NCBI RefSeq assembly: GCF_024623785.1
Contig: NZ_JANKBZ010000009.1
Location: forward strand, 62,001 to 126,000
DNA: 64,000 nt
Reading direction: 5' to 3'
Source of the DNA: Archangium lipolyticum
GTDB lineage: Bacteria > Myxococcota > Myxococcia > Myxococcales > Myxococcaceae
Shown here: positions 43,983-57,289 of the stretch, piece by piece
Position numbering within the stretch: position 1 is the stretch's first letter
Layout of the letters: each line of letters starts with the position of its first letter
Translations under genes and position numbers: made by a program
The notes under the pieces: model-generated
The model's input: only the letters and a program-made list of their open reading frames with translations
Database searches by the model: none
What the model was told of the DNA's origin: nothing

Positions 43983-44888
43983 TCACCCCACGAGCGACCG
44001 CAGCGTCTCCGGCAGCTCGGGGTGCTGGAAGCGGTAGCCGGACTCCAGCGCGAGCCTGGGCAGCACCCGCTGGCCTCCCAGCACCACCCGGGACATCTCC
44101 CCGAACGCCACCTTCAGCGCCAGCGAGGGCACCGGCAGCACGGCCGGCCGGCCCAGCGCCGCTCCCAGCGCCCGGGTGAAGTCCGCGTTCGTCACCGGCT
44201 CCGGCGCCGTCACGTTCATCGGCCCGCGCAGCTCCTCCTGCTCCAGCGCGAAGAGCAGCATCCCGAGCGTGTCGTCACGGTGCACCCAGCTCATGTACTG
44301 CCGTCCCGAGCCCATGCGCCCGCCCACGCCCAGGCGGAAGACGGGCAGCATCTGCTTCATCGCGCCGCCCTCCGGGTGCAGCACCACGCCGATGCGTGGC
44401 ACCACCGTGCGGATGCCCGCCGTGTCCGCCTCCAGCGCCTCGGCCTCCCAGGCCCGGCACACCCTCGCGAGGAAGTCGTCCCCCAGCGAGCTGCTCTCCG
44501 TGAGTGGCTCCGCGCCCCGCTCGTCTCCGTAGACGCCGATGGCCGAGGCGGACACGAAGTGCCGCACCGTGCCCGCCGCCTTCATGGCCTCCACCAGCAG
44601 CCGCGTGCCCACCACGCGGCTGTCGTGGATGCGCTGGCGTGCGCTCTCCGTCCAACGTTGCGCCACCGGCTCGCCCGCCAGGTGCACCACCGCCTCGGCG
44701 CCTCCCAGTGCTTCCGGCGACAGCGGCGTGACCGCGTCGTAGAAGGAGCCGCTCACCCCCTCCGGCAGCCGCGCCAGCGCGCGCTTCACGTCCCGCGCGA
44801 GCACGTGCACCGTGTGGCCCTTCTCCAACAGCCGCCGCACGAGGTGGGGGCCGATGAAGCCGCTCGCCCCGGTGAGCGCCACCTTCAC
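43983..44888 (-). CDS. TIGR01777-family sugar epimerase-like protein
   Basis: 301 aa extended SDR. The N-terminal NAD(P) motif is TGASGFIGPHLVRRL (6-20); VVHLAGEPVAQRWTESARQRIHDSRV is typical of the SulA/YfcH (TIGR01777) group; VSASAIGVYGDE holds the active-site region and a C-terminal domain ends with GYRFQHPELPETLRSL. The family is predicted nucleotide-sugar epimerases without firmly known substrate. Its ATG overlaps the stop of the upstream gene (44885-44888), so expression is coupled to it and possibly to the light operator beyond. Confidence 0.88.
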   Translation of the reverse strand: MKVALTGASGFIGPHLVRRLLEKGHTVHVLARDVKRALARLPEGVSGSFYDAVTPLSPEALGGAEAVVHLAGEPVAQRWTESARQRIHDSRVVGTRLLVEAMKAAGTVRHFVSASAIGVYGDERGAEPLTESSSLGDDFLARVCRAWEAEALEADTAGIRTVVPRIGVVLHPEGGAMKQMLPVFRLGVGGRMGSGRQYMSWVHRDDTLGMLLFALEQEELRGPMNVTAPEPVTNADFTRALGAALGRPAVLPVPSLALKVAFGEMSRVVLGGQRVLPRLALESGYRFQHPELPETLRSLVG

Positions 44889-45439
44889 GGGTGTGCCTCC
44901 TGGGGAATCTCCCGGCCGAGCAGGGTGCTGAGCGCTTGGAAGAAGGTCTCCCGCTCCTGTTCATTCATACGGCCGGAGTATCGGTACACCACGGTGCCCG
45001 CGCCATCCATCAGCAGCACCGAGGATGTCTTCGTCGGCAGGTTCCACGGTGCCACGCCGAGCGTTCCCTTGAGGTCCACGAGAATGGGAATGCCCCACTT
45101 CTTCTCCTCCTCCCTCACGTGAGAGAGGGCGATTCCCCTCGCGGGGAAGAAGTCGAAGGACTCGAGATTGGCCACCGCCACCACCCACGCGGCGTCCAGC
45201 AAGCCGAGCGCCTGCCCCCGCGAGAAGAGGGCATCCTTGAGGCTTCCGTTGAGTGTCGTGGAGTGGCGATCCTCATAGAAGAGAATGACGGGTTTTCCCC
45301 GCCACCGCGACAGCGCCACTTCCTTTCCATCCGAACCCCGCAAGGTTGCGTCCATCGGTCCCGTCCGGGTCGTGGTGGCGAGCGCGGGGCTCGTGGCCAA
45401 CAGGGCGATCGTCAGCATGCCAGCTATCCGTGTGGTCAT
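44885..45439 (-). CDS. Exported thioredoxin-fold protein (YtfJ-like), 184 aa
   Basis: Signal peptide MTTRIAGMLTIALLATSPALA, so periplasmic. The domain resembles peroxiredoxin/YtfJ-type thioredoxin folds: LRGSDGKEVALSRWRGKPVILFYEDR, a partner strand with GIPILVDLKGTLG and a C-terminal VLLMDGAGTVVYRYSG. The redox CxxC is absent (YEDRHST at the place of the active site), so it is not a classical disulfide reductase. The start at 45439 has GGAG 6 bp upstream. It is the first gene of the divergent pair, and the five-repeat CarH-type operator begins 11 bp upstream of its ATG. Confidence 0.75.
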   Translation of the reverse strand: MTTRIAGMLTIALLATSPALATTTRTGPMDATLRGSDGKEVALSRWRGKPVILFYEDRHSTTLNGSLKDALFSRGQALGLLDAAWVVAVANLESFDFFPARGIALSHVREEEKKWGIPILVDLKGTLGVAPWNLPTKTSSVLLMDGAGTVVYRYSGRMNEQERETFFQALSTLLGREIPQEAHP

Positions 45440-45449
45440 TGGAAACTCC

Positions 45450-45504
45450 GTGGACAAACCTTGGACATACCTTGAACATAACCTTGACAAGGGCTGGACA
45501 CAAA
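45450..45504. promoter_or_regulatory. CarH/CarA operator: five tandem 11-bp repeats
   Basis: ACA triplets occur at 45454, 45465, 45476, 45487 and 45498, exactly 11 bp apart, each preceded at -3 by T. All five units thus fit T-n-n-A-C-A, the half-site pattern described for tandem-repeat CarH operators. The units are GTGGACAAACC, TTGGACATACC, TTGAACATAAC, CTTGACAAGGG and CTGGACACAAA. A degenerate sixth unit (TTGGAAACTCC) precedes them at 45439. With carA and carH at the end of the same operon, binding by these repressors is strongly indicated (inference). Confidence 0.85.
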
Positions 45505-45512
45505 GATTACTT
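45484..45512 (+). promoter_or_regulatory. Predicted crt operon promoter inside the operator
   Basis: TTGACA at 45484-45489 is a perfect sigma-70 -35 box and lies in operator repeat 4. Seventeen bp later is TTACTT (45507-45512), a weak -10. A start near 45518 would leave a leader of about 33 nt to the crtE ATG at 45552. Repressor bound to the repeats would block polymerase directly, as known for the Myxococcus carB promoter. Confidence 0.65.
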
Positions 45513-45551
45513 CCAGGGTCGAAGGTACCCATCGCCCTGGAGGACAGCTGT

Positions 45552-46637
45552 ATGGGCCCCACGCCGTTCATCGCCGCTCAGCCCATGCCCGCTCCCTCGG
45601 TGGAGCAGGCGTGGCTGAAGCTGGTGCAGGCCCAGGTGCAGGGGTCCCTGGTGGAACTGCTCGAGCTGCCCGATGAGGCCGGGTTGGACATTCGTTGGAC
45701 AGAAGCCCTTGGCCACGTCCGCGAGTTCGTGTTGCGCCCCTCGCGGCGGCTGCGTCCGGCGTTGCTGCTGGCCGGCTACTGCCTGGCACGGGGCTCGGCG
45801 GCGGCACCGGCGGGGCTGTGGCGCTTCGCGGCGGGGCTGGAGCTGCTGCACACCTGCCAGGTCATCCACGACGACGTGACGGAGGAGGCGGTGCTGCGGC
45901 GCGGAGGCCTGGCCATGCACTTCCTGCTGGCTCCGGGCCGCATCGGGCAGGATCTGGCGGTGGTGGTGGGGGATCATCTCTTCGCCCGCGCGCTGGAGAC
46001 GATGCTGAGCGCGTCGCTGCCGGGCGCGGCGCAGGCCACGCAGTACTGCCTGCGCCTGTGCCGCTACACGGCGGTGGGGCAGTACGCGGCCCTGGAGCGC
46101 GGAGGCGTGTCGCCGGCCGACACGAGCGTGCGTCAGGCCCTGCGCGCGGTGCGCCTGAAGACGATGCGACAGGGCTTCTGCTCTCCGCTGGTGGGCGGGG
46201 CGATGCTGGCCGGCGCGGACGATGCGCTGCGGCTGCGGCTGGCGCGCGTGGGTTGCGACGTGGCGCTGGCCTGGCAGTTGCGAGAGGAGCTGATCGGCCT
46301 CTTCGGAGATGGTCGTGGCTCCGGCCGGGGCACGTCCTGCGACTTCACCCTGGGCCGGCGTACATTCCCGCTGGTGGCGGCCTGCTCGCGGGCCAGCCCG
46401 GAGGTTCGCCGGGAACTGGTGGCGCTGTGGGCGCTGCCCCCCGAGGCCAAGGATGACGCGGCGCTCGCGCGGGCGCGCCGGTTGGTGGAGGAGGCCGGGG
46501 GCCGGGTGGCCACGGAGCGCCTGGTGGCACGGGCCTCACGTGGCGCGGTGCGGGCGCTCGCGGCGCTGCCCAACCCCAATGGCCTGAGGGATTTGCTGCA
46601 GGCGCTCGTCGGCCAGTTGACCCACCGGATGGAATGA
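45552..46637 (+). CDS. crtE: Geranylgeranyl diphosphate synthase-like prenyltransferase
   Basis: 361 aa, first gene of the carotenoid operon, expected to make the C20 precursor GGPP. RPSRRLRPALLL (62-73) is the conserved substrate-binding segment. The first Asp-rich motif reads HDDVTEE (DD at 107-108, Glu111 where Asp is usual). The second is degenerate: REELIGLFGDG (244-254) instead of DDxxD, followed by the usual LGRRTFPLV. So metal binding in the second site departs from the family norm. GGAGGA lies 8 bp before the ATG at 45552. The GTG of the desaturase gene follows 13 bp after the stop. Confidence 0.88.
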   Translation: MGPTPFIAAQPMPAPSVEQAWLKLVQAQVQGSLVELLELPDEAGLDIRWTEALGHVREFVLRPSRRLRPALLLAGYCLARGSAAAPAGLWRFAAGLELLHTCQVIHDDVTEEAVLRRGGLAMHFLLAPGRIGQDLAVVVGDHLFARALETMLSASLPGAAQATQYCLRLCRYTAVGQYAALERGGVSPADTSVRQALRAVRLKTMRQGFCSPLVGGAMLAGADDALRLRLARVGCDVALAWQLREELIGLFGDGRGSGRGTSCDFTLGRRTFPLVAACSRASPEVRRELVALWALPPEAKDDAALARARRLVEEAGGRVATERLVARASRGAVRALAALPNPNGLRDLLQALVGQLTHRME

Positions 46638-46650
46638 GAGGAGAAGCACC

Positions 46651-48195
46651 GTGAGCAGCGGCAAGCGACAGGCGGTGGTGGTGGGCGCGGGAGTGGGGGG
46701 ACTCGCCGCGGCGGCGCGGCTGGCCCACCAGGGGTTCGACGTCCACCTCTTCGAGAAGACGGACGGCCCCGGTGGCCGCTGCAACCGGCTCCAGGTGGAC
46801 GGCTTCACCTGGGACATCGGTCCCACCATCGTGCTCATGCCCGAGGTGTTCCAGGAGACGTTCGCCGCGCTCGGCCGGCGCCTGGAGGACTACCTCACGC
46901 TGCTGCGGTGCGATCCCAACTACCGCATCCACTACCGCGACGGCTCGGCCATCACCTTCACCTCCGAGCTGTGCACCATGGGGCAGGAGCTGGAGCGGAT
47001 AGAGCCGGGCAGCTACGCGCGCTACCTCGCCTTCCTCGCGCAGGGCCGCACCCAGTACCGCACCAGCCTGGACCACCTGGTGGGCCGCAACTATTCGGGC
47101 ATCAGCGACTACTTCGCGCCCTCGGTGCTCAAGAAGATCTTCCAGGTGCGCGCCCACCGCCGCATGTACGCGGACGTCAGCCGCTTCTTCCAGGACGAGC
47201 GGCTGCGCGCGGCGATGACCTTCCAGACGATGTACCTCGGGGTGTCGCCCTTCGCGTCGCCCGCGGTGTACGGGCTGTTGCCCTTCACCGAGCTGGGGGT
47301 GGGCGTGTGGTTCCCCAAGGGCGGGCTCTACGCCATTCCGCTCGCGCTGGAGAAGGTGGCGCGCGAGGAGGGCGTGCGGCTGCACTACGGCACGCCGGTG
47401 AAGCGCATCCTCACCGAGGGCTCGCGCGCCACGGGCGTGGAGCTCGAGAGCGGCGAGGTGGTGAAGGCGGACGTGGTGCTCTGTAATGCGGATCTCCCCT
47501 ACGCGTACGAGAAGCTGTTGGATCCGGGCGTCACCCGGCTCAAGCGCGCGGAGAAGCTGCGCTTCACCTCCAGTGGCTACATGCTCTACCTGGGACTTCG
47601 CCGGCGCTATGACGGGTTGCACCACCACAACGTCGTTTTCGGCCACGACTACAAGGGCTCGTTCGAGGACCTCTTCGAGCGCTTCCGCGTGCCCGAGGAT
47701 CCGAGCTTCTACGTGAATGCTCCGGCGCATACGGATCCGAGCCTGGCGCCTCCGGGCAAGGATGCCCTGTACGTCCTGGTGCCGGTGCCCCATCAGCACC
47801 CGGGCCTGGACTGGAAGGTGGAGGGCCCGAAGGTGCGCGCGAAGGTGCTGCGGCGCCTGGCGGAGCTGGGCTACCCGGAGCTGGAGCGGGACATCGAGGT
47901 GGAGCGTGTGTTCACGCCCGACGACTGGGCCTTCACCTTCAACCTGGCCCGGGGGAGCGCGTTCGGGCTGGCTCAAAACTTTATGCAGATTGGCCCCTTC
48001 CGACCCTCCAACCAGGATGCGCGGGTGCGGAACCTGTTCTTCGTGGGGGCCTCCACCCAGCCGGGGACCGGACTTCCCACGGTGCTCATCTCCGCGAGGC
48101 TGGTGGTGGAGCGTATCCTGGCCTGGTCGGGTGTGACGGATGTGGTGAAGGAGCCCCGGGGAGCCGGGCGCGGAGCAATCGAGGAGGCGGCATGA
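46651..48195 (+). CDS. crtI: Phytoene desaturase
   Basis: 514 aa FAD-dependent CrtI. The dinucleotide-binding motif is VVGAGVGGLAAAARL (10-24) with FEKTDGPGGRC after it; the C-terminal FAD contact is NLFFVGASTQPGTGLPTVL. It desaturates phytoene stepwise at the membrane. By position (crtE-crtI-crtB) it corresponds to crtIa of the Myxococcus carB operon; the second Myxococcus desaturase, crtIb (carC), is encoded elsewhere in that genome and is not seen here. GTG start with GAGGAGAAG upstream. Its stop overlaps the crtB ATG. Confidence 0.92.
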   Translation: MSSGKRQAVVVGAGVGGLAAAARLAHQGFDVHLFEKTDGPGGRCNRLQVDGFTWDIGPTIVLMPEVFQETFAALGRRLEDYLTLLRCDPNYRIHYRDGSAITFTSELCTMGQELERIEPGSYARYLAFLAQGRTQYRTSLDHLVGRNYSGISDYFAPSVLKKIFQVRAHRRMYADVSRFFQDERLRAAMTFQTMYLGVSPFASPAVYGLLPFTELGVGVWFPKGGLYAIPLALEKVAREEGVRLHYGTPVKRILTEGSRATGVELESGEVVKADVVLCNADLPYAYEKLLDPGVTRLKRAEKLRFTSSGYMLYLGLRRRYDGLHHHNVVFGHDYKGSFEDLFERFRVPEDPSFYVNAPAHTDPSLAPPGKDALYVLVPVPHQHPGLDWKVEGPKVRAKVLRRLAELGYPELERDIEVERVFTPDDWAFTFNLARGSAFGLAQNFMQIGPFRPSNQDARVRNLFFVGASTQPGTGLPTVLISARLVVERILAWSGVTDVVKEPRGAGRGAIEEAA

Positions 48196-49217
48196 AGGCG
48201 CATGACAACACCCTGGTGGCACGTGGTTACGAGATGGCGGAGCGCGTGACTCGCAATCACGCCAAGAGCTTCTTCTTCGCCTCGTTCATGCTCTTCGGCA
48301 TGCGGCGCAAGGCGGCCTTCGCGCTCTACGCGTACTGCCGGCGGCTGGATGACATGGTGGACGTGGCGGACGGGGCGGACCACGGCGCGGTGCCCGAGGG
48401 GTTGGGCGAGCGGCTGGTGCGCGCGCGCCGCGCGGTGGCCGAGCTCTTCCTGGAGACGCCGGAGCTGGCCGATCCACGCATGCCGCCGCCCGCCACGCGT
48501 GCCAGCGGTGGCGAGGGCCCGTGGGATGCGGCGGAGCTGGCCGCGCTGGTGGACTGCATCCGCCGCTTCCGCGTCCCCGAGCAGCCCATGCAGGACCTCA
48601 TCTCCGGCATGGAGATGGACCTGACGAAGCGCCGCTACGACAGCTGGGCGGAGCTGGACCTGTACTGCTACCGGGTGGCGGGCGTGGTGGGGCTGATGAT
48701 GGCGCCGATGCTGGGCTGCTCGGACGAGTGGGCGCTCGGGCCGGCGGCGGATCTGGGCCGCGCCATGCAGCTCACCAACATCCTCCGGGACGTGAAGGAG
48801 GACCTGGACCGCGACCGCGTCTACCTGCCGCTGGACGAGCTGGCCGCCTTCGAGCTGACGGTGGACGACCTGCGCCGGGGCGTGGTGGACGACCGCTGGC
48901 GCGGCTTCATGCGCTTCCAGATCGAACGGGCGCGCGCCTACTACGCGAGGGCGGCGGCGGGCATCCCCGCGCTCACCGGCTTCGGCTGCCAGCGCATGGT
49001 GAAGCTGATGGGCTCCATCTACGGGGACATCCTGCGCGTCATCGAGCAGAACGACTACGACGTCTTCAAGGGGCGGCTCTCGGTGCCGGGCTCGCGCAAG
49101 CTGGCGCTGGCCACCTCCATCCTCGTGCGGCCCTCGTCGGTGCTGCCCGCCCCACCGACTCCTGAAGTGAAGGTGCCGCTGCTGCCCACCGGCATCACCC
49201 CGGGAGTCAGTCCATGA
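48192..49217 (+). CDS. crtB: Phytoene synthase
   Basis: 341 aa squalene/phytoene synthase family enzyme, condensing two GGPP to phytoene. Motifs: YCRRLDDMVD (first Asp-rich site, Asp53-Asp57), YCYRVAGVVG, and QLTNILRDVKEDLDRDRVYLP (second Asp-rich site). A loop with PPPATRASGGEGP (about 97-110) is longer than in most CrtB proteins. A C-terminal Pro-rich tail of about 25 residues follows the last helix. ATGA overlaps link it to crtI before and the HMG-CoA reductase gene after. Confidence 0.94.
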   Translation: MKAHDNTLVARGYEMAERVTRNHAKSFFFASFMLFGMRRKAAFALYAYCRRLDDMVDVADGADHGAVPEGLGERLVRARRAVAELFLETPELADPRMPPPATRASGGEGPWDAAELAALVDCIRRFRVPEQPMQDLISGMEMDLTKRRYDSWAELDLYCYRVAGVVGLMMAPMLGCSDEWALGPAADLGRAMQLTNILRDVKEDLDRDRVYLPLDELAAFELTVDDLRRGVVDDRWRGFMRFQIERARAYYARAAAGIPALTGFGCQRMVKLMGSIYGDILRVIEQNDYDVFKGRLSVPGSRKLALATSILVRPSSVLPAPPTPEVKVPLLPTGITPGVSP

Positions 49218-50536
49218 GCGACGACAAGATACAGAAGCTGAAGGTGCGGCGCTCCTCGCGGCTGTCGGGCTTCTACCGTCAGTCGCCGGAGAGCCGCCGC
49301 ACCCGGCTGGTGGAGTCGCGCTGGCTGGAGCCGGAGGATGCCGAGGCGTGCGCGGGCCTGGGCGGTTTCGACGAGGCCTGCGCGGACGCCATGGTGGAGA
49401 ACGTCATCGGCCTGCACGGCCTGCCGCTGGGCCTGGCGCTCAACTTCGTGGTGAACGGGCAGGACCGGCTGGTGCCCATGTCGGTGGAGGAGCCCTCCAT
49501 CATCGCCGCGGCCAGCTACGCCGCGCGCCTGTGCGCCGAGGGCGGCGGCTTCACCGTGACGGCGGATGAGCCCATCACCACCGCGCAGGTGCAGCTGCTG
49601 GACGTGCCCTCGCTGGCCGAGGCGGAGACGGTGCTGCGCACGCGGGCGCCCGAGCTGTTGGCCGAGGCCAATGGCCTGCTGGGGGCCATGTGCGCCCGGG
49701 GTGGAGGGGCGCGCGAGCTGGAGGTGCGCGTGCTGGACGCCACCACGCTCGTCGTCCACCTGCACGTGGACACCCGCGATGCCATGGGGGCCAACCTCGT
49801 CAACGGGCTGGCCGAGAAGATGGCACCTCGGCTCGCGGCCCTCACGCGAAGCCGGGCGGGGCTGAAGATCCTCACCAACCTGGCGGATCGCCGGAAGGTG
49901 TACGTGCGGACACGGGTTCCGGCGGCGGCGCTGGCCTTCGAGGGCTTCCCCGATGGCCAGGCGGTGCGGGATGCCATCCTGGAGGCGCACCTCTTCGCGG
50001 AGTTGGATCCGTACCGGGCCGTCACCCACAACAAGGGGGTGATGAACGGGGTGGACGCGGTGCTGGTGGCGTGCGGCAACGACTGGCGCGCGGTGGAGGC
50101 GGGAGCGCACGCGTACGCGGCCCGCTCGGGCGTGTACCGGCCACTCACGTCGTGGAGGAAGGGGCCCGAGGGCGAGCTGGAGGGGCAGCTGGTGATGCCG
50201 CTGGCCACCTCGACGGTGGGCGGAGCGGCGCGCACGCATCCGGGCGTGCGGCGGGCGCTGAAGCTGGCCTGCGTGAAGAGCGCGGTGGACCTGGCGTGCG
50301 TGGCGGCGGCGGCGGGACTGGCCACCAACCTGTCGGCCCTCAAGGCGCTGTCCACCGAGGGCATCCAGAAGGGACACATGGCGCTGCACGCGCGGCGCGT
50401 GGCGGCGGAGGTGGGGGCGGAGGGAGAGCTGGTGGAGATCGTCGCCGAGCGGCTGGCGCGCGAGCGCGTCTACCGGCCGGAGCGTGCGCGGGAGATCCTC
50501 GCCGAGGAGGTACGTCGGAAGGGGGCTTCGCGATGA
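49214..50536 (+). CDS. mvaA: HMG-CoA reductase, class II-like
   Basis: 440 aa enzyme that makes mevalonate from HMG-CoA, the committed step of the mevalonate route to isoprenoids. Family motifs: ENVIGLHGLPLGLALN (62-77), VEEPSIIAA with the catalytic Glu (92), DAMGANLVN (189-197), THNKGVMNG (271-279, catalytic Lys274) and KGHMALHAR with the C-terminal His388. Length and lack of membrane domain match class II bacterial enzymes such as Pseudomonas MvaA. It is locked into the operon by ATGA overlaps on both sides, so precursor supply is co-expressed with carotenoid synthesis. The Myxococcus carB operon as known to me has no such gene at this place. Confidence 0.92.
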   Translation: MSDDKIQKLKVRRSSRLSGFYRQSPESRRTRLVESRWLEPEDAEACAGLGGFDEACADAMVENVIGLHGLPLGLALNFVVNGQDRLVPMSVEEPSIIAAASYAARLCAEGGGFTVTADEPITTAQVQLLDVPSLAEAETVLRTRAPELLAEANGLLGAMCARGGGARELEVRVLDATTLVVHLHVDTRDAMGANLVNGLAEKMAPRLAALTRSRAGLKILTNLADRRKVYVRTRVPAAALAFEGFPDGQAVRDAILEAHLFAELDPYRAVTHNKGVMNGVDAVLVACGNDWRAVEAGAHAYAARSGVYRPLTSWRKGPEGELEGQLVMPLATSTVGGAARTHPGVRRALKLACVKSAVDLACVAAAAGLATNLSALKALSTEGIQKGHMALHARRVAAEVGAEGELVEIVAERLARERVYRPERAREILAEEVRRKGASR

Positions 50537-54830: not shown

Positions 54831-55510
54831 TTCGCGCGGCGAAGGGCGGACTCCTCGGGTGGGTGCTCGATGGCTACGTCGGGTGGAAGTTCCGCTCGGC
54901 GTTCCGTGGCCTGTGGGTGCGCGGAGGGCTGCCGGGAGGGGAGGGCTCGCGCCTGGTGTACGCCAACCATTGCAACTGGTGGGACGGCTTCGTGCTGCAC
55001 CAGGTGGGGAAGGCGGCGGGGTGGGACGCGTACTGCGTCATGGAGGAGCACAACCTGGAGCGCTACCGTTTCCTGTCCCGGCTGGGGGCGTTCAGCATCC
55101 GCCGGGGCGAGTGGGCCTCGTCGCTGGAGACGCTGCGGTACGCGGGCCAGTTGTTGCGTGGACCCCGGGCGGCGGTGTGCCTGTTTCCGGAGGGGGAGCT
55201 GAGGCCCTTCGGGGTGCTGCCGCTGCGGCTGGAGCGCGGGGTGGAGCTGCTGGCGCGGGTGGGGAAGGTGGAGTGCGTACCGCTCGCCATCCGCTATGCC
55301 TTCTTCGAGCACGAGCGGCCGGACGTGCTGGTGGAGGTGGGGACGCCGCACGCGGCGGGGTCGCTGTCGCGCTTCCAGGCGGAGCTGGAGGGGGCGGTGC
55401 GGCGGCTGGCGGAGGCGACGAGCCTGGAGGGCTTCACGCGGGTGGTGTCCGGGGGCATGGGGGTGGCGGAGCGTTGGGACGTGGTGCGGGGGAGGGCGCC
55501 TTCGGCATGA
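54827..55510 (+). CDS. PlsC-like acyltransferase of the carotenoid operon
   Basis: 227 aa lysophospholipid-acyltransferase-like domain. The catalytic HX4D is NHCNWWD (His48, Asp53) and the acceptor motif is LFPEGELRP (Pro121-Gly123). FSIRRGE (about 89-95) is block II. No membrane span is obvious, so it is probably peripheral. In context it would esterify the carotenoid glycoside with a fatty acid, consistent with myxobacterial carotenoid glycoside esters; it matches 'orf9' of the Myxococcus operon. It starts at GTG overlapping the crtYd stop, and its own stop overlaps the carA ATG. Confidence 0.85.
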   Translation: MIRAAKGGLLGWVLDGYVGWKFRSAFRGLWVRGGLPGGEGSRLVYANHCNWWDGFVLHQVGKAAGWDAYCVMEEHNLERYRFLSRLGAFSIRRGEWASSLETLRYAGQLLRGPRAAVCLFPEGELRPFGVLPLRLERGVELLARVGKVECVPLAIRYAFFEHERPDVLVEVGTPHAAGSLSRFQAELEGAVRRLAEATSLEGFTRVVSGGMGVAERWDVVRGRAPSA

Positions 55511-56367
55511 CGCTGCGCATCCGGACCATCGCCCGGCTGACGGGCATCCGCGAGGCCACGCTGCGGGCCTGGGAGCGGCGCTATGGCTTCCCGCGCCCCC
55601 ACCGCAACGAGAGCAACTACCGGGTGTACTCGCGCGACGAGGTGGAGAACATCCGCCGGGTGGCGAAGCTCATCTCCGAGGGCCTGGCGGTGAGCGAGGC
55701 GATCGCCCAGGTGCGGACGACGCCGGTGGGCGAGCTGCCGGTGGGTGAGCGGCTGGAGGAGCGCTTCTGGTCGGCGGTGATGATGCTGGACGGGGACGAG
55801 GCGGACCGGGTGCTGGGCGAGGCGCGGGCCACGATGGACGCGCAGGCCTACTGTGACTCCTTCCTCATGCCGCTGCTGCGGGAGATGGGGATGCGGCTGG
55901 ACATCGCGCGGGAGCACATGGCCTCGGCGCTCATCCGCCAGCGGCTGCGCGCCCTGCTGCTGGCCGAGGACTCGCGCCCGGAGGGCCCCCGGGTGCTGCT
56001 GGCCTGTCCGGAGCGGGACATGCACGAGGGCGGACTGCTGGCGCTGGGACTGCACTTGAAGCGGAAGGGCTGGAGGGTGACGCTGCTGGGGGCGGATACG
56101 CCGGCGGAGGCGTTGCGCTCGGCCTGCCAGCAGGTGCACCCGGATCTGGTGGCGCTCTCCTGCGTGCGGAGGAGGGAGCCAGGGGAGCTGCAACAGGTGC
56201 TGAGCGCCTCGGTCGAGGCGTGTGCTCCGACGCTGGTGGTGGTAGGAGGGCCGGGCGCGCGTGAGCACCTGAAGGCCATCTTCAGCGCGGGGGCGCAGTA
56301 CGCCGAGACCGCGGAGGAGCTGGTGCTCCTCTGGCAGCAGGCGCGCGGCGAGTCGAACCGTACCTGA
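55507..56367 (+). CDS. carA: MerR/B12-domain repressor CarA
   Basis: 286 aa. The N-terminal MerR winged helix (about 4-70) has IRTIARLTGIREATLRAWERRYG and NYRVYSRDEVENIRR. A helical bundle (about 85-150) and a cobalamin-binding Rossmann domain (about 160-283) follow, with DMHEGG (171-176) fitting the D-x-H-x-x-G B12 motif. The photosensory W-x9-EH motif of CarH is not present: the corresponding place reads MGMRLDIAREH, lacking the Trp. This fits Myxococcus CarA, which represses the operon without needing B12. The target would be the operator at 45450-45504 (autoregulation). Confidence 0.93.
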   Translation: MTLRIRTIARLTGIREATLRAWERRYGFPRPHRNESNYRVYSRDEVENIRRVAKLISEGLAVSEAIAQVRTTPVGELPVGERLEERFWSAVMMLDGDEADRVLGEARATMDAQAYCDSFLMPLLREMGMRLDIAREHMASALIRQRLRALLLAEDSRPEGPRVLLACPERDMHEGGLLALGLHLKRKGWRVTLLGADTPAEALRSACQQVHPDLVALSCVRRREPGELQQVLSASVEACAPTLVVVGGPGAREHLKAIFSAGAQYAETAEELVLLWQQARGESNRT

Positions 56368-56398: not shown

Positions 56399-57289
56399 AT
56401 GGCCGAGCGCACCTACAGAATCCATGTCGCCGCCGAGCTGTCCGGGGTGAGGGTAGAGCTCATCCGGGCCTGGGAGCGGCGCTACGGTGTGCTGGCGCCG
56501 AGGCGCACGCCCTCGGGCTACCGGGTGTACACGGACCGGGACGTGGCGCTGCTGCGGCGGCTCAAGCAACTCACCGAGGAGGGGGTGTCCATCAGCGAGG
56601 CGGCGACGATGTTGCCGCAGTTGCTGAGGGAGATGGACGCGGCGCGGCCCGCCGTGGAGCCAGACTCCTCGAGCGTGCGGGCGTGGATGGACGATGCGCT
56701 CGCGGCGGCGGAGGCGCTGGACCAGGCGCGGATCTCGGCGGTGCTGGACGAGGTGCTGGCGGCGCTGTCGCCGCTGAGGGCGTATGACGAGGTGCTGGTG
56801 CCCCTGCAGCGGGAGGTGGGGGAGCGCTGGCATGAGGGCACGTTCTCGGTGGGGCAGGAGCACCTGGTGACGCAGGAGGTGCGCGCACGGCTCATCGGCC
56901 TGCTGCACGCGGCACCGGGCCAGGGGAACCGGCGCGTGGTGCTGGCGTGCTTTCCGACGGAGGAGCACGAGATTGGACTGTTGGGCGCGGCGCTGAGGCT
57001 CCGGCACGCGGGGATGTCGGTGACGCTGTTGGGGCAGCGGACGCCAGCGGCGGAGGTGGGGCGGGTGGCGCACGCGCTGAAGGCGGAGCTCGTGGGGCTG
57101 TCGGCGGTGACGGACGAGGGGGCCCGGGTGTTCGAGGACACGCTGTCCCGAATCCTGGAGGGCATTCCCCAGGGGACGCCGGTCTGGGTGGGGGGTCCTG
57201 GGGCGCTGTTGCACCGCGAGGTGGGCGAGCGGCTGGGGGTGCACGTCTTCGAGAGCGGGGACGACTGGGCGCGGCTGCTGGGCGCGTGA
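56399..57289 (+). CDS. carH: B12-dependent photoreceptor repressor CarH
   Basis: 296 aa with MerR helix-turn-helix (about 4-70), four-helix bundle and B12-binding domain. The light-sensing motif W-x9-EH is complete (Trp144, Glu154, His155), and the lower-ligand motif E-x-H-x-x-G is EEHEIG (His190). In characterised CarH proteins adenosylcobalamin drives a dark tetramer that binds tandem 11-bp repeats, and light breaks it. All needed residues are here, so direct light control of the crt operon is predicted. The gene starts 31 bp after carA, the only sizeable gap after crtI, with GGAGGGG upstream. Confidence 0.94.
   Translation: MAERTYRIHVAAELSGVRVELIRAWERRYGVLAPRRTPSGYRVYTDRDVALLRRLKQLTEEGVSISEAATMLPQLLREMDAARPAVEPDSSSVRAWMDDALAAAEALDQARISAVLDEVLAALSPLRAYDEVLVPLQREVGERWHEGTFSVGQEHLVTQEVRARLIGLLHAAPGQGNRRVVLACFPTEEHEIGLLGAALRLRHAGMSVTLLGQRTPAAEVGRVAHALKAELVGLSAVTDEGARVFEDTLSRILEGIPQGTPVWVGGPGALLHREVGERLGVHVFESGDDWARLLGA

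Follow-up and report, generated by a model that had tools for sequence, protein, structure and literature searches.

What kind of regulatory element is the phased array of TnnACA units in front of crtE at 45447-45501, and is anything about it new? We are confident that this segment of the window (the whole 64,000-nucleotide stretch of Archangium DNA analyzed here) is the predicted CarA/CarH operator of P_crt, the promoter of the light-induced carotenoid operon, in Archangium. The array, its place on a likely promoter, its conservation among relatives, and the carA-carH pair are all seen here. Operators of this kind are already known and in print; the unusual part is that five of five repeats are full. 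The array and the gene that borders it are as follows.

45451-45456, plus strand: repeat 1 core TGGACA (11-mer 45447-45457), aligned with unit 1 of relatives.
45462-45467, plus strand: repeat 2 core TGGACA (11-mer 45458-45468), aligned with relatives.
45473-45478, plus strand: repeat 3 core TGAACA (11-mer 45469-45479), aligned with relatives.
45484-45489, plus strand: repeat 4 core TTGACA, the -35 element of P_crt (11-mer 45480-45490), placed by alignment.
45495-45500, plus strand: repeat 5 core TGGACA, in the -35/-10 spacer (11-mer 45491-45501), aligned with relatives.
44885-45439, minus strand: divergent gene, distantly AhpC-TSA/redoxin-like, its start codon 12 positions from repeat 1.

A preliminary description of this DNA had reported five TnnACA units 11 bp apart with TTGACA as unit 4, and the letters agree with it at every position: ACA stands at 45454, 45465, 45476, 45487, and 45498, with T three bases before each, and the TnnACA core is complete in all five repeats. 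It had also placed a degenerate unit ahead of these at 45439. A TGGAAA with three of the four contact bases is indeed present at 45440, but its contact bases are not conserved. The sixth unit at 45439/45440 was rejected on this ground; the divergent gene has its GGAG and ATG at the same place.

The divergent gene (minus strand, its ATG ending at 45439) and crtE (ATG at 45552) have their start codons 112 bp apart, and within this gap we placed the remaining promoter element.

45508-45513, plus strand: probable -10 element TACTTC, 18 bp from TTGACA, aligned with TACCTC of M. xanthus.

TACCTC is the -10 element of the M. xanthus promoter (PMC8156234); the P_crt counterpart is weak and probable, its position taken only from the M. 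xanthus alignment. Judging by the usual distance from a -10 element, transcription would start at about 45520. Numbered from 45520, the five 11-mers cover -73 to -19, and if that start is right, they would fit the M. xanthus CarA footprint, which covers -70 to -19 (PMC8156234).

Downstream lies a cluster whose members were assigned by profile and structure matches.

45552-46637, plus strand: crtE, polyprenyl synthetase family, first gene of the carotenoid cluster (PF00348, 3.4e-28).
46651-48195, plus strand: crtI-type phytoene desaturase (PF01593, 3e-43), the specific name taken from M. xanthus synteny.
48192-49217, plus strand: crtB, phytoene synthase (PF00494, 3.6e-72).
49214-50536, plus strand: HMG-CoA reductase within the cluster (PF00368, 5.1e-94).
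55507-56367, plus strand: carA, MerR DNA-binding domain plus B12-binding domain without Wx9EH (2jml, 2.6e-31).
56399-57289, plus strand: carH, MerR domain plus B12-binding domain with the Wx9EH motif WHEGTFSVGQEH (CarH 5c8d, 1.6e-30).

The structures matched are the DNA-binding domain of M. xanthus CarA (2jml; PMC8156234) and T. thermophilus CarH (5c8d; PMC9304148). The order crtE, crtI, crtB, HMG-CoA reductase, further genes, carA, carH is that of the published Cystobacterineae cluster, and an HMG-CoA reductase within it has been reported for two Archangium species (PMC9304148). The operator lies directly upstream of crtE in a cluster ending with carA-carH, the arrangement that marks P_crt in Cystobacterineae. 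Both regulators of the window carry RxWERRY, while Wx9EH is found in CarH and is absent from CarA; the same division of Wx9EH held in 18/18 genomes compared, with one CarA (G037) reading RxWERRH. CarA as a query found no relative among viral contigs.

The CrtE encoded in this cluster is itself altered. Its Asp-rich motifs are changed in all six Archangium genomes compared (DDVAD to DDVTE or similar, QLRDD to QLREE or similar) and are largely lost in the four genomes (G031-G034) of g6, a genus whose name is itself presumptive and which has one CarH-like and no CarA-like match, as published for Cystobacter/Melittangium (PMC9304148). The altered crtE frames stay open, with dN/dS of 0.14-0.59 in nine pairs tested. 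All ten genomes have a second CrtE-like gene elsewhere, and the Asp motifs are intact in the copy checked (G000:C3:118246-119289). The operon CrtE is perhaps now a noncatalytic subunit. Its best NCBIfam match is the family 2 encapsulin cargo polyprenyl transferase (5.1e-39, 134 bits against a cut-off of 450).

We then compared the DNA upstream of crtE in relatives. crtE was found in 84 of 96 family genomes, and 83 upstream regions were counted, with G047 (crtE fragments), second crtE copies, and the 12 genomes without a crtE match left out. TTGACA is unit 4 of a five-unit, 11-bp register in 65 of the 83, under a scoring that gave a bonus to that register; at least three units are full in 57 of these 65. 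With D for a full unit and d for one that is not, the patterns were DdDDd (39), DDDDd (8), ddDDd (7), dDDDd (5), and DDDDD (2), plus DdDDD, DDdDd, dDDDD, and dddDD once each. Of the other 18 regions, 12 carry two or more full units phased at 11 bp with no TTGACA in unit 4, and six (G046, G049, G087, G089, G091, and G094) have one full unit or none, a level that the best-register search can reach by chance. The preliminary reading of a CarH/CarA operator over the crtE -35 box is borne out by this conserved register and by the carA-carH pair that ends the same cluster.

Conservation is uneven along the array. At the contact columns of units 3-5, the genus-weighted majority is at least 0.90, except at the last base of unit 5; at those of units 1 and 2, it is lower, from 0.50 to 0.99. 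Unit 5 has G as its final base in 60 of the 65 aligned relatives; it is thus usually imperfect, and the full unit 5 of the window is the exception. In the two named records compared, our patterns agree with the published ones, which are DR1-dr2-DR3-DR4-dr5 for M. xanthus (L143, the same as G078) and dr1-dr2-DR3-DR4-dr5 for A. violaceum (PMC9304148). In genera g3 and g26 (L085-L092, L095, L098, L100, and L101), the best CarA match has about 34-41% identity to that of the window; their loci mostly keep 11-bp phased TnnACA upstream of crtE, with no TTGACA in unit 4. Since these deeper relatives mostly keep phased units, the array may predate the carA-carH pair.

The design matches published operators closely. 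Perez-Castano et al. (2022) described five 11-bp repeats with TTGACA within repeat 4 in the CarH-bearing Cystobacterineae that they analyzed; whether full or imperfect, five repeats are usual in the suborder (PMC9304148). A literature search by title and abstract opening, with subscription papers outside its reach, gave no account of such an operator besides PMC9304148 and PMC8156234. Like P_crt/PB of M. xanthus, the window has five 11-bp repeats with TTGACA in repeat 4, a -10 element of the TAC(C/T)TC type 18 bp away, crtE as the first gene, and carA-carH as the last. It differs from the M. xanthus operator in having five full repeats and no perfect AAGGTTn6AACCTT. P_crt of Cystobacter fuscus (dr1-DR2-DR3-DR4-dr5), footprinted with the CarH dimer, has the same register, -35 overlap, and repeat number; C. 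fuscus differs in having no CarA and in its imperfect repeats 1 and 5 (PMC9304148). Thermus thermophilus (three repeats) and Bacillus megaterium (four) share 11-bp TnnACA repeats over a promoter element, with tetrameric CarH and fewer repeats than the window (PMC9304148, PMC8156234).

The preliminary description had given the Myxococcus carB operator as palindromic, an outdated account superseded in PMC9304148. A palindromic operator was rejected for the window, as AAGGTTn6AACCTT is absent from it. Of the 83 upstream stretches, 28 have the perfect palindrome, and they belong to just two genera, g5 (15) and g19 (13).

The array may also serve the gene on its other side. Under this extension, the array would repress the 44885-45439 gene as well, and light would induce both genes; we regard it as a tentative candidate. 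It starts from the observation that the redoxin-like gene is a conserved neighbor of crtE, present at 30/30 long genome loci, 25/25 named loci (the two sets overlap), and 15/17 further crtE loci (some also named), where it is missing at G095 and at G050, the latter cut by a contig end. No such gene lies beside the second crtE copy of this genome. The start of the divergent protein resembles a signal peptide by eye, and the window copy has no cysteine. All 15 family members examined had weak Pfam matches to AhpC-TSA and YtfJ (best 2.7e-4 and 3.4e-4; 0.053 and 0.009 for the protein of the window itself). The only thioredoxin-family matches of its profile against the PDB were two at E values of 0.27-0.28, and an AlphaFold2 model from 15 sequences reached a mean pLDDT of 43 and was set aside.

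The spacing of this gene also favors the extension. In 33 of 39 loci, the divergent frame has an ATG at a distance of 11-17 positions from repeat 1, and its promoter would therefore share DNA with the operator if the gene starts there and the promoter is not within crtE. The exceptions are all four g6 genomes, G080, and G041, in which no ATG has such spacing. On the reverse strand, a TTG and a TAT separated by a 17-bp spacing fall within the array and spacer in 58 of 65 regions, but this promoter was chosen after the conserved columns had been seen and matches the sigma-70 hexamers at about three of six bases each. Its conservation is not independent evidence, because the choice was post hoc and the bases are shared with the operator. 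There is a published parallel in Sorangium: both pairs of genes there are responsive to light and B12, and a single CarH site is proposed to act on their two divergent promoters (PMC9304148). The divergent partner itself is not mentioned in the main-text passages of PMC9304148 and PMC8156234 around "divergent" and "upstream" (the best 12 of 16 places in one set and all five in the other). More speculative still is the broader version, in which most of the family would have a bidirectional operator, the CarA/CarH array switching a divergent, probably secreted redoxin-like gene too; here, the G-to-A change that completes repeat 5 would alter its candidate reverse -35 from TTGCGT to TTGTGT.

How would a five-repeat operator be occupied? 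Binding, dimer formation, and the light response have been demonstrated by others in relatives, and we infer the same behavior for the Archangium strain. Cystobacter CarH is a dimer, and its footprints are those of two dimers bound cooperatively to four of the five repeats, in one of two overlapping registers that each cover the -35 box (PMC9304148). In M. xanthus, CarA binds the same DNA similarly to CarH (PMC9304148), and the two are repressors of one operator (PMC8156234, PMC9304148). By analogy, two dimers would bind the window operator in either of two registers, and these light-sensing, B12-using repressors would shut off the carotenoid genes in the dark. In CarH, light would cleave the cobalt-carbon bond of the bound B12; CarA would be removed by an antirepressor that light induces (CarS in M. 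xanthus). We assume this CarS step for the Archangium strain, because carQRS was not found by an NrsF-family search of the genome. The only match of that search sits in an ECF operon, downstream of which no acidic, CarS-sized frame was seen; this ECF/NrsF-type anti-sigma pair (L159, 1477-2861, minus strand) was not accepted as carQRS. A CarF-family desaturase gene is present in the genome.

With a full TnnACA core in every repeat, both registers are predicted to be near ideal, and we predict repression that is tighter, or achieved with less repressor, than in Archangium operators in which ACG ends unit 1, 2, or 5. Any such effect may be small, since PMC9304148 stresses the plasticity of these operators.

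The preliminary description had gone further, treating five units as a surplus to be shared by CarA and CarH or by two tetramers. That both proteins use the same operator stands, although it was already published for M. xanthus (PMC8156234, PMC9304148). The surplus is not supported, as Cystobacter CarH is dimeric and two of its dimers cover four of five repeats (PMC9304148). It is improbable that five full repeats seat CarA and CarH dimers, or two tetramers, simultaneously. carA and carH are both present, and both products act on one operator in M. xanthus (PMC8156234), but five repeats amount to two dimers plus one spare, and the sixth unit is not conserved. The larger Cystobacter complex needs just two CarH dimers, and its two registers overlap (PMC9304148). 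At three or four repeats per tetramer, two tetramers would presumably require six to eight. CarA and CarH could occupy four repeats as a mixed pair.

The array is also rare. In 200 first-order Markov copies of the window, the longest 11-bp TnnACA run was one unit in 168 copies, two units in 32, and never three, and a five-unit run is far beyond chance. On both strands, the window has only one other such run, a TGGACA pair at 45685-45701 within crtE, its units 11 bp apart and out of phase with the operator; it is probably due to chance or codon usage, because a pair arises in 32 of the 200 simulated windows. In the 12.59-Mb genome, the three-unit pattern matched at this site only (three overlapping matches, against two for the backwards control pattern), and a search for a wider CarH regulon found no other array of three full units. 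Across six Archangium genomes, the eight three-unit matches fall in four genomes, every one at crtE. Two genomes, this one (G000) and G006 of the same genus, have the five-unit pattern, whether the search covers the 96 genomes of the family or 195 of the phylum; its backwards control matched once, in G085, in either search. That control match among 96 genomes shows that the pattern can arise otherwise, but with the register conserved in 65 of 83 crtE upstream regions and three units in phase in 0/200 simulated windows, the chance that the array is accidental or a neutral tandem duplication is negligible.

Within Archangium, the number of full units varies: two in G002 and in A. violaceum Cb vi76 (G004), three in Archangium lansinium (G003), four in G005, and five in G000 and G006. 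At contact positions, the six operators are alike except that units 1, 2, and 5 can end in either A or G. G000 and G006 differ at 0/20 contact positions and at 3/30 other array positions. They group together in a midpoint-rooted CarA tree (98/96), with G005 among the rest (98/95). The recognition-helix regions of CarA and CarH are identical in all six genomes, including the WERRYG region, and do not covary with the number of full repeats; other residues of the DNA-binding domain vary a little. As the operators differ by A/G at unit ends while the recognition helices stay the same, the five-full state is a small cis change in a conserved design.

The published operator design is found here outside the species listed in PMC9304148, and the census now covers 83 crtE upstream regions. 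The listed species have two or three full repeats (PMC9304148); what is new is five full repeats in this Archangium genome, and the counts 2, 2, 3, 4, 5, and 5 are a natural tuning series. The all-consensus operator, this series, and a possible second gene are modest additions. If the divergent redoxin-like gene is co-regulated, it would be an unrecognized member of the light and singlet-oxygen response. With recognition-helix regions of CarA and CarH identical across six Archangium genomes, the worth of each repeat would be measurable without designed mutants.
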